From: Chloroflexota bacterium
GTDB taxonomy: Bacteria; Chloroflexota; Limnocylindria; QHBO01
Assembly: GCA_025937535.1 (NCBI GenBank)
Contig: JAICRD010000003.1
Span: 1 to 35,431, forward strand
DNA: 35,431 nt
Direction of reading: 5' to 3'
Part shown: piece by piece, positions 14,853-21,638 of the stretch
Layout: each line of letters starts with the position of its first letter
Numbering within the stretch: the first letter of the stretch is position 1
Translations under genes and position numbers: made by a program
The notes under the pieces: generated by a model
Told to the model about the DNA's origin: nothing
Seen by the model: the letters and a program-made list of their open reading frames with translations, nothing else
Database searches by the model: none

Positions 14853-16186
14853 GAGCGCAGCGCTCGGGCGAACGGCTTCCGGGATCGGAATGGACCCAGG
14901 ACGGCGAGCCTCGCCTCGGACGGCGCGATGAAGCGCTGCGCCACGCGAAGGAGGTCGTCCACGGTGACGGCCTCGAGGCGCTCGATGACCTCGTCGACGG
15001 TGAGGATTCGCGGCAGCAGCGACTCGCCGCTGCCGATCCAGCCAGCAACCGCACCGGAGTCCTCCATGCGCAGCTCGAGGCGGCCGCGAGTGTAGGCGCG
15101 CGCACGTTCGAGCTCGTCGGCGTCGACCGGATCGGTCGTGATGCGGTCGAGCTGCTCGAGGACGGCGCGAACGACGCGCTCGGCGTCCTCCGGGTTGAAG
15201 CCGGCATGCACTCCGAAGGTGCCGGTATCGGCGTAGCTGGCGCTGAAGGTCGAGACGTCGTACACCAGCGAGCGCCGCTCGCGAAGCTCCAGGAAGAGCC
15301 GGCTGCCCATCCCGTCGCCGAGGATGGCGCCAAGCAGGTCCAGCGCCCACCTGTCCGGATGATCGCGGGCGACGCCGGGCATGCCCAGGCACAGGTTGCC
15401 CTGGCTCAGTCGCCGATGCGAGACGCGCAGGGCGCCACCGGGCGCCGGGGCGGGGGCCGGGGCGGCGACCGGCGGCCGACGACGCGGGCCGCCCACGTCG
15501 GGCGGGCCGGCGGCATGCCACTCGGCTGCGGCGCGGACGACCTCGTCGTGGTCGACGCGGCCGGCGGCCGCGAGGACCATCGCGCCCGGCCGGTAGGCGG
15601 CGCGCCAGTGGCCGACGACGGCCTCGTGCGTGGCGCGCCGCACCGAGCCGATGGTGCCGGCGATCTCACGCCCCAGCGGATGCCGCCCGTACAGCAGCTC
15701 GTCGAACAGGGTGAAGACGTGGTCCGACGGCGAGTCGACGTACATCCGGATCTCGTCGACGATCACCGGCTTCTCGGCGGCGAGATCGCGGCGCCTCAGC
15801 AGCGGGTGGAGCGCCAGCTCACTGACGGCGTGGAGGGCCGTGTCGACGTGCTCGGCCGGGACCTTGGAGCTGAAGACCGTCAGCTCGCGGTCCGTGCTGG
15901 CATTGACGCTGCCGCCGATGCCCTCCACCACCTGCGACAGCGAGCCCGCCTCCGGATGGGCGCGCGTTCCCTTGAAGACGAGGTGCTCGAGGAAGTGTGA
16001 GAGGCCGGCGTGCTGCTCGTCCTCGTGGCGGGACCCCACCGGCACGAAGATGGCCACGCTGGCCGAGCGGGCGCCGGGCATCGACTGGGTGACGACGCGA
16101 AGGCCGCTCTCGAGCACGCTCCGCTGGTGCCCGGGCGCTGCCGCGGCGACGGCCCGTGGCCGCGCGCGCACGGGCGTGGCGGTCAC
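14849..16186 (-). CDS. M16-family zinc peptidase (processing-peptidase-like)
   Basis: The 445-residue product is a single M16 unit with an N-terminal peptidase half and a C-terminal half. The inverted zinc motif HFLEH (with LVFKGT after it) and the downstream Glu in VIVDEIRMYVDSPSDHVF give the HxxEH...E site. The second half has the YDVSTFSASYADTGTFGVHAG segment. Bacterial members degrade or process short peptides; the true substrate is unknown. GTG 16186 overlaps the upstream stop (GTGA). No signal peptide is seen, so it is probably cytoplasmic. Confidence 0.92.
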   Translation of the reverse strand: MTATPVRARPRAVAAAAPGHQRSVLESGLRVVTQSMPGARSASVAIFVPVGSRHEDEQHAGLSHFLEHLVFKGTRAHPEAGSLSQVVEGIGGSVNASTDRELTVFSSKVPAEHVDTALHAVSELALHPLLRRRDLAAEKPVIVDEIRMYVDSPSDHVFTLFDELLYGRHPLGREIAGTIGSVRRATHEAVVGHWRAAYRPGAMVLAAAGRVDHDEVVRAAAEWHAAGPPDVGGPRRRPPVAAPAPAPAPGGALRVSHRRLSQGNLCLGMPGVARDHPDRWALDLLGAILGDGMGSRLFLELRERRSLVYDVSTFSASYADTGTFGVHAGFNPEDAERVVRAVLEQLDRITTDPVDADELERARAYTRGRLELRMEDSGAVAGWIGSGESLLPRILTVDEVIERLEAVTVDDLLRVAQRFIAPSEARLAVLGPFRSRKPFARALRS

Positions 16187-16701
16187 GGCCCGTCCTCGTC
16201 CTCGTCCGACCGCTCACCGTCGGCGGCGTCGGCGTCGGCCGACATGAGCAGCTCCATCTGGATGAAGCGCAGGTCGCGAGCGAGCTCCTCGGCGTTGCGG
16301 GGGAGCGGCCGGCCGTTCGGTGGGTGTGCCGCATCGGTCTCTCCGTCGGCGGCGAGGCGCGGTTGGCCGCTCGCGGCGAACTCGAGCACGACGCGCTCGT
16401 TGCCGACGGTCAGTGTGTAGACCAGGAGCTGCTCCGAGGTGGTGTCGAACTGGAGGTAGTCGAACGAGTCGAGGTTGACGCAGATGGCGAGCGGCGTGAA
16501 GTACGAGGCGATCTCCGGGTGATCCACCACGATGCGCTCAACCCACCCCGTGCCGCTCGACTCGACCTTCGATCCCCGAACGTAGGTGTAGCTGACCGTC
16601 TGCTTCAGGAGCGGGCGCAGGATGTTGTAGATGTCGCTCTTTCCGGTGACCACGCCGGTGTTGATGTAGAGCTTGGCGCGCGCGTCTGACATCGGGCTCA
16701 T
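16183..16701 (-). CDS. Conserved-looking protein of unknown function
   Basis: I do not recognise this 172-residue protein. Its middle is a mixed alpha/beta domain (KLYINTGVVTGKSDIYNIL, SYTYVRGSKVESSGTGWV, FDYLQFDTTSEQLLVYTL, RVVLEFAASG). The C-terminus is acidic and Asp/Ala-rich. It is first in a tight operon with an M16 peptidase, a TPR-like protein and ndk. The ATG is at 16701, with an alternative at 16692; TAGACT at 16721-16726 is a likely -10 box 19 nt upstream. Confidence 0.75.
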   Translation of the reverse strand: MSPMSDARAKLYINTGVVTGKSDIYNILRPLLKQTVSYTYVRGSKVESSGTGWVERIVVDHPEIASYFTPLAICVNLDSFDYLQFDTTSEQLLVYTLTVGNERVVLEFAASGQPRLAADGETDAAHPPNGRPLPRNAEELARDLRFIQMELLMSADADAADGERSDEDEDGP

Positions 16702-16781: not shown

Positions 16782-17603
16782 GTGAAGCTGCTGGCGGCCG
16801 ACATCGGCAACACGAACGTCTCGATCGGCCTCTTCACCGACGACCGACTGGCGCGCTCCTGGCGCGCCATCACGCGTGCGAACGCGACCTCCGATGAAGT
16901 TGCGGCCATGCTCACCGGCCTGCTCGCGCTGGACGGGCACCGCCTCGACGAGCTCGACGCGGTTGCACTCGCCAGCGTCGTCCCGCCGCTGACCGAGACG
17001 TGGGAGCGCCTCAGTGCCGATCGGATCGGCGTGGCGCCCGCCATCGTCGACGCCGCCTCGCTCGACGGCATCCTCGACATCCGGATCGATCGGCCGTCGG
17101 AGGCCGGTGCGGACCGCCTGGCCAACGCGTTGGCCGCGCGGACCGAGTTCGGCGGGCCGGCCATCGTCATCGACCTCGGCACCAGCACGAACTTCGACCT
17201 CGTCGACGCCGATGGCGCCTACATCGGCGGGGCGATCGCGCCGGGCATGGGCCTCAGCCTGGAGGCGCTGGTCGGGCGCGCCAGCAAGCTGCCGCGCATC
17301 GAGCTGCGGCGTCCGCCGTCGGCGATCGGCGCCAACACCATCCACGCCATGCAGTCCGGAGCGGTGCTCGGCTACATCGGCCTGGTCAGCGGGCTGCTGA
17401 CCGCGCTGCGCGGCGAGCTGATCGAGCGGTCGCCGCGCGAGACCCGCATCACGGTCGTGGCGACCGGCGGATACACCCACCAGCCGTGGCTGGCCGAGGT
17501 GCCCGGCATCGACCGGGTCGAGCCCGACCTCACCCTGCGCGGCATCCGATACGCATGGGCCGCCATCCGCGATCGGTCACGCGCCGCGGCAGGCGAGCGA
17601 TGA
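16782..17603 (+). CDS. coaX: Type III pantothenate kinase
   Basis: It phosphorylates pantothenate in the first step of coenzyme A synthesis. The 273-residue product starts with the ATP-binding DIGNTNVSIGLF. It has the catalytic GADR (SEAGADRLANAL), the second phosphate loop IDLGTSTNFD (usual form D-F-G-T-A-T-T-x-D) and GGAIAPGMGLSLEAL. The start is GTG 16782. The stop overlaps the coaBC start in ATGA. It is first in a coaX-coaBC-panC operon. Confidence 0.94.
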   Translation: MKLLAADIGNTNVSIGLFTDDRLARSWRAITRANATSDEVAAMLTGLLALDGHRLDELDAVALASVVPPLTETWERLSADRIGVAPAIVDAASLDGILDIRIDRPSEAGADRLANALAARTEFGGPAIVIDLGTSTNFDLVDADGAYIGGAIAPGMGLSLEALVGRASKLPRIELRRPPSAIGANTIHAMQSGAVLGYIGLVSGLLTALRGELIERSPRETRITVVATGGYTHQPWLAEVPGIDRVEPDLTLRGIRYAWAAIRDRSRAAAGER

Positions 17604-18868
17604 ACGAGGGCCTGGGCCCACTCGCCGGTCGGCGCATCGTCGTCGGCGTCTCGGGCAGCATCGCCGCCTACAAGGCGGTGAGCCTGGTCCGCATGCTGGG
17701 GGACCGAGGCGCCGTGGTCGACGTCGCCATGACCGCCGCGGCGACGCGCTTCGTCGGTCCGCTGACCTTCGAGAGCCTCACCCACCGGCCCGTGCTCGAC
17801 GACGTCTTCGAGCTCGACGCTGAACAGCAGATCGCGCACATCGAGCTGGCCGAGGCGGCCGATGCGATCGTCCTCGCCCCTGCGACCGCCAACCTCATCG
17901 GCGAGCTGGCGGCCGGCCTGGTGGGTGACGCGGTGACCGCCATCGCGTGTGCCAGCCGCGCACCGGTCATCGTGGCGCCGGCGATGGACGCCGGCATGTG
18001 GACGCACCCGGCCACGCAGCGGAACGTGGCCACCCTGCGAGACTTCGGCTACATCCTGGTCGAGCCGGAGGTCGGCGAGCTCGCGTCGGGGCTGACGGGC
18101 ATCGGCCGCCTGGCGGAGCCGCCGACCATCGTCGCCGCGGTCGAGCACCTGTTCGCGCGTGCGGGCGACCTCGAGGGCCTGCACGTCGTGGTCAGCGCCG
18201 GCGGCACGCGGGAGCCGCTCGATCCCGTCCGCTTCATCGGCAATCGCAGCAGCGGCAAGATGGGCGCCGCCCTTGCAGAGGCCGCCCGCGATCGCGGTGC
18301 GGCGGTGACCCTGATCGCCGGCGTCATGAGCGTCACGCCACCGCGGGGCGTCACGGTGATCGAAGCAACGACCGCGCACGCGATGCGCGAGTCGGTCCTG
18401 CGGGCGGCGCCGAACGCCGACATCCTGGTCATGGCCGCCGCCGTCGCCGACTTCGCGCCGGCCCGCGCCAGCCAGCGCAAGATCAAGCGCTCCGGCGACA
18501 CGCTCCAGATCGAGCTCGTGCCGAACCCGGACATCGTGGCCGAGGTCGGCGAGATGCCCGACGAGGTGCGTCCGTTCCTCATCGGCTTCGCGGCCGAGTC
18601 GAACGACCTGGAGGCGAACGCGGCGGCGAAGCTACGCGACAAGGGGCTCGACCTCATCGTCGGGAACGTGGTGGGCGGGCCGTTCGACGCCATCGGCTCA
18701 GACGAGAACAAGGTCACCGTCTTCGCTGCCGAGGGCGCACTGACCGACTGGCCGATGCTGCCGAAGCGCCAGGTCGCCGAGCGCCTGTGGGATCTCATCG
18801 CTGACCGATACCGACACTCGAGGGGGGCGACCGAGAGCACCACCTCCCCGCGCCGCCGCCGTTCGTGA
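17600..18868 (+). CDS. coaBC: Bifunctional phosphopantothenoylcysteine decarboxylase / phosphopantothenate-cysteine ligase
   Basis: It makes 4'-phosphopantetheine from phosphopantothenate and cysteine. The 422-residue product has the CoaC flavoprotein half (about 1-190): GVSGSIAAYKAV, the FMN/His region ELAEAADAIVLAPATANLIGEL, and PAMDAGMW in place of PAMNxxMW, so the usual Asn is Asp. The CoaB half (about 195-422) has SAGGTREPLDPVRFIGNRSSGKMG, AAAVADF, KIKR and a VGN segment. ATG 17600 is chosen. The GTGA overlap at the stop couples it to panC. Confidence 0.94.
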   Translation: MNEGLGPLAGRRIVVGVSGSIAAYKAVSLVRMLGDRGAVVDVAMTAAATRFVGPLTFESLTHRPVLDDVFELDAEQQIAHIELAEAADAIVLAPATANLIGELAAGLVGDAVTAIACASRAPVIVAPAMDAGMWTHPATQRNVATLRDFGYILVEPEVGELASGLTGIGRLAEPPTIVAAVEHLFARAGDLEGLHVVVSAGGTREPLDPVRFIGNRSSGKMGAALAEAARDRGAAVTLIAGVMSVTPPRGVTVIEATTAHAMRESVLRAAPNADILVMAAAVADFAPARASQRKIKRSGDTLQIELVPNPDIVAEVGEMPDEVRPFLIGFAAESNDLEANAAAKLRDKGLDLIVGNVVGGPFDAIGSDENKVTVFAAEGALTDWPMLPKRQVAERLWDLIADRYRHSRGATESTTSPRRRRS

Positions 18869-19719
18869 TCGTCGTCCACACCGCGGACGAGCTGCGAGAC
18901 GCGATCCTCCAGCGCCGGATCGCCGGCGACAGCGTCGGCTTCGTGCCGACGATGGGCATGCTCCACGACGGCCAGCTGTCGCTCGTGCGGCGCGCGCGCG
19001 CCGACAATGGCTGCGTGGTCGTCTCGTCGTTCGTGAACCCGCATGCCTTCAGCACGCTGGACGAGGGCCAGCCCGGCGCTCGCGATCACGTTCGCGACCT
19101 TGCGCTGCTCGACCACGCCGAGGTCGACATCGCGTTCCTGCCGGAGGTCACGACGCTCTACCCACCCGACGACACGACGCGCGTGACGGTGGAGGGCCTG
19201 ACGCGGCAGCTGGAGGGCGCGTCTCGCCCCGGACACCTCGACGGGCTGACCACGGTCATGCTCAAGCTGCTCCATCTGGTCGGCCCGGCCCGCCTGTACC
19301 TCGGCCAGCGACACGCCCAGCAGGTGGTGATCGTCCGCCGCATGCTGCGCGACCTGTTCATGAACGTGGAGCTCGTCATCTGCCCCACGATCCGCGATGA
19401 CGACGGGCTGGCGCTGTCGAGCGCCAACGCCCTGCTCGGCATCGAGGAGCGCCACGCCGCGACGTGCCTGTACAACGCGCTCAACGCGGCGAAGGCCGCC
19501 TACGACGCCGGCGAGCGCTCGGCGGAGGTGCTGCGCTGGCGCATGACCGACGTGCTGGCGGCCGAGCATCGCGCGCGCATCGACTACGTCAGCGTCGCGG
19601 ACGCGGCCACCCTGGCCGAGCTGCAGCGCGTGTCCGGTCCGGCGCTGGCGCTCGTCGCGATCTGGATCGGGCGGGCGCGGCTGACCGACAACATGCCGCT
19701 TGCCTGGGACGTGGCATAG
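18865..19719 (+). CDS. panC: PanC-like pantoate-beta-alanine ligase homologue with altered active site
   Basis: PanC joins pantoate and beta-alanine with ATP. The 284-residue product aligns with PanC along its whole length (PTMGMLHDGQLSLV, FVNP, GHLDG..TVMLKLL, AQQ, LALSSAN). Several binding residues differ from the standard enzyme: the second His of HxGH is Gln37, the Gln of NPxQF is Ala61, the YPR segment is missing, the Lys-Asp of GxKD is Arg149-His150, and the Arg of SSRN is Ala187. His34, Asn58, His124, Gln153 and Ser185-186 remain. It starts with GTG 18865, overlapping coaBC. It may be a divergent PanC, or an enzyme with another substrate; the CoA operon favours the former. Confidence 0.8.
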   Translation: MIVVHTADELRDAILQRRIAGDSVGFVPTMGMLHDGQLSLVRRARADNGCVVVSSFVNPHAFSTLDEGQPGARDHVRDLALLDHAEVDIAFLPEVTTLYPPDDTTRVTVEGLTRQLEGASRPGHLDGLTTVMLKLLHLVGPARLYLGQRHAQQVVIVRRMLRDLFMNVELVICPTIRDDDGLALSSANALLGIEERHAATCLYNALNAAKAAYDAGERSAEVLRWRMTDVLAAEHRARIDYVSVADAATLAELQRVSGPALALVAIWIGRARLTDNMPLAWDVA

Positions 19720-21032: not shown

Positions 21033-21638
21033 CTACGAACGGGACTTCGTGCGGCGCTCCACCAGCTCGACGCCCTCGCGCAGCCGGCCGATGAGCTCCG
21101 CGTCGATCATCTCGGGCTCGAGGTGCTCGCCGAGCCGCTCGAGCATGTCGGCCGCGACGGACAGCAGCACGTCCGCATCGGCGATGAAGAACTGCGGCTC
21201 GTTGTTGTAGCGCACGAGCGTCAGGCGGCCCTGGAGCGTGAGCCCGGACTCGGTGTGCGACAGCTGCGTGCCGAAGTTGTGGCCCTGGATGCCGTCCGGG
21301 TTGTTGAGGAAGTTCAGCGCGTTGTCGATGACGAGGCCGAAGCGGGCGCGCCACGACACCAGCCGCTCCTGCACGTCGGACGGCAGGCCCATCTCGCCGA
21401 GCTCCTCGAAGACGCCGCGGTCGACGGTCAGCAGCCCCACCAGCGTCGACCCGGCACGGCCGCCGAGCATGACCTGGAGCGACCGCTCCAGCGTGAACAC
21501 GTCGGCGTCGAAACGTGGGCTGGTCGTGACCTCGGCCAGCAGGTCCTCGACGTTGTCGAGCTGGCCAGGATCGGCGAGCGCGTTCGCGAGGTTGTGGATC
21601 TCCTCGCGAAACAGGAAGCGCTCTTCGTGATCGAGCAT
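21033..21638 (-). CDS. Unknown protein downstream of glutamate dehydrogenase
   Basis: I do not recognise this 201-residue protein. It is soluble and mostly helical at the N-terminus (HEERFLFREEIHNLANAL), with a central segment RFGLVIDNALNFLNNPDG and a beta-rich part (HTESGLTLQGRLTLVRYNN, FFIADADVLLSV). The C-terminus is a helix (LIGRLREGVELVERR). The start is ATG 21638, only 4 nt after the gdh stop, so it shares that transcript. A regulatory or assembly role with the dehydrogenase is possible but is only inference. Confidence 0.75.
   Translation of the reverse strand: MLDHEERFLFREEIHNLANALADPGQLDNVEDLLAEVTTSPRFDADVFTLERSLQVMLGGRAGSTLVGLLTVDRGVFEELGEMGLPSDVQERLVSWRARFGLVIDNALNFLNNPDGIQGHNFGTQLSHTESGLTLQGRLTLVRYNNEPQFFIADADVLLSVAADMLERLGEHLEPEMIDAELIGRLREGVELVERRTKSRS

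Follow-up and report, generated by a model that had tools for sequence, protein, structure and literature searches.

A divergent PanC homologue in the coaX-coaBC operon of a Chloroflexota family, a probable PanC pseudoenzyme

PanC (pantothenate synthetase) is a well-studied drug target, and its active-site residues are almost invariant. An open reading frame in contig JAICRD010000003.1 of a Chloroflexota bacterium (assembly GCA_025937535.1), labelled an ordinary PanC by automatic annotation, departs from this pattern and raises the question of what a PanC homologue does in a CoA operon once several of these residues are replaced. The stretch of DNA analysed, here called the window, is 35,431 nt long. 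The original prediction, made from the letters of the window, was that this gene, termed panC* below, has a changed substrate or mechanism or is a non-catalytic partner of the CoA enzymes.

The panC* gene and its active-site residues

panC* is an intact open reading frame of 284 aa with a GTG start. It matches PF02569 (275 bits, cut-off 20.7) and TIGR00018 panC (264.8 bits, cut-off 212.75) from end to end, and the nearest solved structure is the Thermotoga maritima PanC, 2ejc (E-value = 1.2e-70). By full-length homology it therefore belongs with PanC, and the frames and both profiles bear out an end-to-end PanC homologue overlapping the coaX-coaBC operon. There are two 4-nt overlaps in the window, coaX/coaBC and coaBC/panC*. 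At all readable loci of the family the distance from the coaBC stop to the panC* start ranges from a 4-nt overlap to a gap of a few nt, which is consistent with coupled translation. CoaX and CoaBC are single in the family genomes and both are encoded in the panC* operon, the exception being one sub-threshold DFP match in genome G017. The possibility that the whole operon is a duplicate CoA operon was ruled out, as there is one copy each of CoaX and of the DFP domain. Positions are given in Table 1.

Table 1. Features of the panC* locus, with positions in the window
Feature	Position	Strand	Remarks
u16183, protein without Pfam match	16183..16701	-	
coaX, type III pantothenate kinase	16782..17603	+	sole copy in genome
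coaBC, bifunctional phosphopantothenoylcysteine synthetase/decarboxylase	17600..18868	+	sole copy in genome
panC*, divergent PanC homologue, probable PanC pseudoenzyme	18865..19719	+	from residues; same place across family
Gln37 codon replacing catalytic His47 (HxGH to HxGQ)	18973..18975	+	Gln throughout clade; position = 18865+3*36
Residues 61-71, loop with Ala61 (Gln72) and Gly71 (Tyr82)	19045..19077	+	clade-variable; pLDDT below 50
Residues 109-120, newly constrained	19189..19224	+	entropy 0.16 vs 0.70 in f2 PanC, ratio 0.22
Arg149-His150 codons replacing Lys160-Asp161	19309..19314	+	from alignment
Ala187 codon replacing Arg198	19423..19425	+	Ala throughout clade
Residues 217-228, newly constrained, mostly helix in model	19513..19548	+	entropy 0.20 vs 1.12 in f2 PanC, ratio 0.18
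Residues 277-284, conserved C-terminal tail MPLAWDVA	19693..19716	+	low model confidence; missing from f2 PanC and two clade members
u21033, protein without Pfam match	21033..21638	-	

In an alignment to 2ejc and M. tuberculosis PanC, the replacements named by the original prediction are correct in numbering and identity: His47 is Gln37, Gln72 is Ala61, Tyr82 is Gly71, Lys160-Asp161 is Arg149-His150 and Arg198 is Ala187. The residues said to stay (His34, Asn58, His124, Gln153 and Ser185-Ser186 in panC* numbering) are likewise present. The M. tuberculosis row is a sequence that we take to be that of its PanC. 2ejc and the retrieved PanCs show these columns too, and PMC5772511 numbers the residues in the same way.

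The substitutions were compared with a reference set of 118 other PanCs, some of them near-duplicates: 13 canonical sequences of the same family, 21 of the sister family f2, and a further 84 from elsewhere in the class and phylum and from other phyla. Gln72, Tyr82, Lys160, Asp161 and Arg198 are invariant in this set, and His47 has one exception, L170, a lone PanC from Candidatus Eisenbacteria, which shows Pro at this column with the other checked residues canonical. The Pro is either an error or a separate variant. There are 54 columns conserved in at least 95% of the set. In the panC* clade, 33 of these are kept by 90% or more of the members and 12 by less than half. His47 is replaced by Gln, Arg198 by Ala and Ile280 by Thr in every member; Gln72 is never retained (A/D/E/G/S/V instead). 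Lys160 has become Arg in 78% and Asp161 His in 89%. Further changes are Asp78 to Glu, Phe136 to Leu, Val139 to Leu and Phe157 to Leu, and Tyr82 and Pro83 are variable. His44, Gly46, Arg132 and Ser196 are invariant in the clade, and Asn69, His135, Gln164 and Ser197 are kept in 83–89%. Judged by the alignments, these substitutions are far beyond chance, and by the residue set His44/His47/Asn69/Gln72/Lys160/Gln164/Arg198 panC* falls outside PanC.

Loss of both the lysine and the arginine that hold the ATP phosphates had been proposed. The arginine part stands, with Ala clade-wide. However, Lys160 to Arg149 is a conservative change and approximately 22% of the clade still carries Lys, so the lysine loss is not clade-wide. 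Single Ala mutants of His44, His47, Asn69, Gln72 and Lys160 in M. tuberculosis PanC show a loss of approximately 1000-fold, according to the mention of Zheng et al. in PMC5772511. panC* has lost all three of His47, Gln72 and Arg198, which makes ordinary PanC activity unlikely; a loss of PanC activity thus appears well supported by the residues.

Distribution, the second panC and locus history

Among the 22 genomes of the family, which are draft assemblies, panC* is present at full length in 20 and as a fragment in G017; in the remaining genome the coaBC match stops part-way, as at a contig end. The panC* sequences form one clade in the protein tree (support 100/100) on a long stem of 0.63, in keeping with the expectation that the substitutions define a conserved clade. 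Canonical residues at this locus in related genomes, which would have pointed to a sequencing or assembly error, were not found within the family. Full-length panC* from complete family genomes score 448–568 bits with the clade profile. The next best score is 341 bits among 400 Chloroflexota genomes and 305 in the class, a gap that indicates a family-restricted form within what was searched, among the matches listed.

The assembly of the window (2.1 Mb, 253 contigs, 83% complete) carries two PanCs. The other has every catalytic residue and sits in a DUF2520-panC-panB cassette; the second, canonical panC and the panB that were sought in this genome are thus both present. Judged by residues alone, it is an active counterpart to panC*. 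Both forms are found in 6 of 6 family genomes with a completeness of 90% or more and a contamination of no more than 5%. The identical order DUF2520-panC-panB is seen at an Acidimicrobiales locus (L133). panD, searched for alongside, is absent from the genome, as from nearly the whole class: 69 of the 71 class genomes lack this pyruvoyl aspartate decarboxylase, though panB and panC are present. A tie of panC* to the lack of panD was therefore ruled out.

The sister families f2 and f3 share the order M16 peptidase - u16183 - coaX - coaBC - panB - panC - BioD/DRTGG protein - u21033 - glutamate dehydrogenase. Their panC at this locus has canonical residues and is their only panC. The family of the window shows the same order minus panB, with panC* in the panC slot. 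By parsimony, the shared order makes panC* the resident gene and the DUF2520-panC-panB cassette a later arrival. Vertical descent finds no confirmation in the protein tree, which is too weak for this: a grouping of panC* with f2 receives no support, and the AU test does not reject it either (p = 0.24). A foreign PanC might also have replaced the resident gene in place. In the likely order of events, the family ancestor would have acquired the second cassette, and the PanC encoded there, with its active site intact, would have taken over catalysis. At the coaX-coaBC locus the old panB would then have been lost, and the old panC would have lost PanC catalysis and stayed tightly coupled to coaBC under strong purifying selection.

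Other features of the locus are recorded here in their own right. The u16183 and u21033 proteins keep a conserved order around coaX-coaBC-panC in families f1–f3. The CoaC domain of CoaBC reads PAMD and Ser at residues 130 and 163 in all sequences examined from the window's family, f2 and f3, where two non-Chloroflexota outgroup sequences read PAMN and Cys; the decarboxylase half of this CoaBC is possibly altered. Since the sister families share these two replacements in the CoaC motif, Asn to Asp and Cys to Ser, they were rejected as a companion of panC*. In CoaX, residue 137 of the GTATT-type motif is Asn in 18 of 18 family sequences and Thr in 18 of 19 others; solved relatives show Thr, or Cys in 9b78.

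Constraint within the protein and predicted fold

The median dN/dS within genus (Nei-Gojobori) is 0.150 for panC* (36 pairs), 0.131 for coaX, 0.110 for coaBC and 0.249 for the canonical panC (3 pairs only), ratios that are rough because synonymous divergence is high. The panC* value is close to those of its two operon neighbours and lower than that of the canonical copy. It is a conserved clade under purifying selection, with universal catalytic residues lost in an otherwise intact protein, as is characteristic of a pseudoenzyme.

Constraint is unevenly placed. The ATP phosphate/ribose positions have an entropy of 0.24 bits in the clade, with an all-position mean of 0.67, and thus new residues became fixed there. 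Either a dead site or a new active site would fit this pattern. The pantoate/beta-alanine positions show 0.83 bits in the clade vs 0.00–0.03 in canonical sets, and the Gln72 and Tyr82 sites reach 2.32 and 2.17 bits. Loop 61–72 is looser in panC* than in f2 PanC. Two other segments are newly constrained (Table 1), and the C-terminal tail has an entropy ratio of 0.33 to f2 PanC, its LAWDVA stretch being absent in two clade members and in f2.

The AlphaFold model of panC* keeps the PanC fold (pLDDT 89.9, pTM 0.87), and a Foldseek search with it gives 2ejc first (TM = 0.94). The structure prediction called for at the outset thus yields a retained fold, as a prediction. The weak parts of the model are loop 61–71 and the last block (pLDDT 48); in the model of the canonical copy the same loop is likewise the weakest block (57).

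Function of panC* and its meaning for CoA synthesis

Both the conserved clade and the second canonical panC with panB support the original choice between a changed substrate or mechanism and a non-catalytic partner of the CoA enzymes. The best explanation, to which we give about an even chance, is that the resident panC of the coaX-coaBC(-panB)-panC locus has become a conserved pseudoenzyme, most likely a non-catalytic partner in the CoA pathway. It draws on the canonical panC beside panB elsewhere and the occurrence of both copies in all six good family genomes, on the fully supported clade with fixed Gln47 and Ala198 at the f2/f3 panC locus minus panB, on a dN/dS near that of coaX and coaBC, the tight coaBC spacing and the retained fold, and on the loss of approximately 1000-fold in Ala mutants of His47, Gln72 and Lys160, as relayed in PMC5772511. 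The non-catalytic role is favoured because constraint resembles that of the operon partners and has left the acceptor loop for other parts of the protein. The sole CoaX and CoaBC sit in the panC* operon and are thus the first candidate partners; the canonical PanC, through a PanC-type dimer, could be another. The re-specified pocket may bind a nucleotide or CoA-like ligand, and its new fixed residues would leave room for such a ligand or for a new reaction. More tentatively, this displaced bacterial PanC, kept in its old operon, might bind a ligand and control CoaBC or CoaX as a regulatory subunit, a biosynthetic enzyme turned into a sensor of CoA or of a nucleotide.

Some chemistry is possible in panC*, since His44, Ser196 and Arg132 are retained and Lys160 is replaced by Arg. 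An enzyme with a changed substrate or mechanism, with a rebuilt nucleotide site (Gln47, His161, Ala198, Leu157) and a donor or acceptor other than ATP, pantoate and beta-alanine, would account for the fixed ATP-side positions and for the invariance of His44, Gly46, Arg132 and Ser196. But the acceptor-side loop drifts with no new fixed residues there, and Asn69, His135, Gln164 or Ser197 are also gone in some members; such an enzyme is possible but doubtful. That panC* is still a pantothenate synthetase, with the unusual residues making up for those lost and perhaps active in conditions that differ from those of the canonical copy, would agree with its passing the NCBIfam panC equivalog cut-off and with the conservative Lys160 to Arg change. 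It is improbable, however, with His47, Gln72 and Arg198 jointly gone in all members, single His47 or Gln72 mutants approximately 1000-fold down by the account in PMC5772511, and a canonical copy in the genome. The genome of the window is fragmented, as would suit a decaying relic or an assembly or binning artefact without function, but intact frames with the same changes occur in 20 family assemblies, one of them with 7 contigs and 99% completeness. These 20 sequences and a dN/dS of 0.15 rule out a single-assembly artefact or decay and make a functionless panC* very improbable.

PanC enzymes are dimers, and panC* might be a heteromeric subunit that forms a mixed dimer with the canonical PanC, regulating or stabilising it. 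This sub-case of the pseudoenzyme reading is rather unlikely, as the gene sits with CoaBC and not with the canonical panC, although dead paralogues that activate or regulate a live enzyme are known in the AdoMetDC prozyme (PMC5201418) and deoxyhypusine synthase (PMC3663545). Like panC*, these are conserved paralogues without catalytic residues beside an active copy in one genome; they are trypanosomatid and shown by experiment, whereas panC* is bacterial and its partners are candidates. The apicomplexan heteromeric pantothenate kinase (PMC8366970) similarly pairs two homologues of one CoA-pathway enzyme in one organism, but it is a kinase and not PanC, eukaryotic, and its complex is experimentally shown. 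No report of a PanC pseudoenzyme was found in the open-access literature searched.

The panC* protein is like PanC (PF02569, TIGR00018) in its full-length homology, predicted fold, HxG motif with His44 and 33 of 54 universally conserved columns. It is unlike PanC in the replacement of His47, Gln72, Tyr82, Asp161 and Arg198, and unlike an ordinary PanC in having no adjoining panB and a canonical PanC elsewhere in the genome. A naturally occurring and strongly conserved PanC lacking its active-site residues would be a PanC pseudoenzyme, and panC* would indicate a regulatory layer of CoA synthesis not known before, or a new reaction in this pathway. Since the sister families have the canonical panC at the same locus, the states before and after the change can be compared in nature, and the question is open to direct testing.
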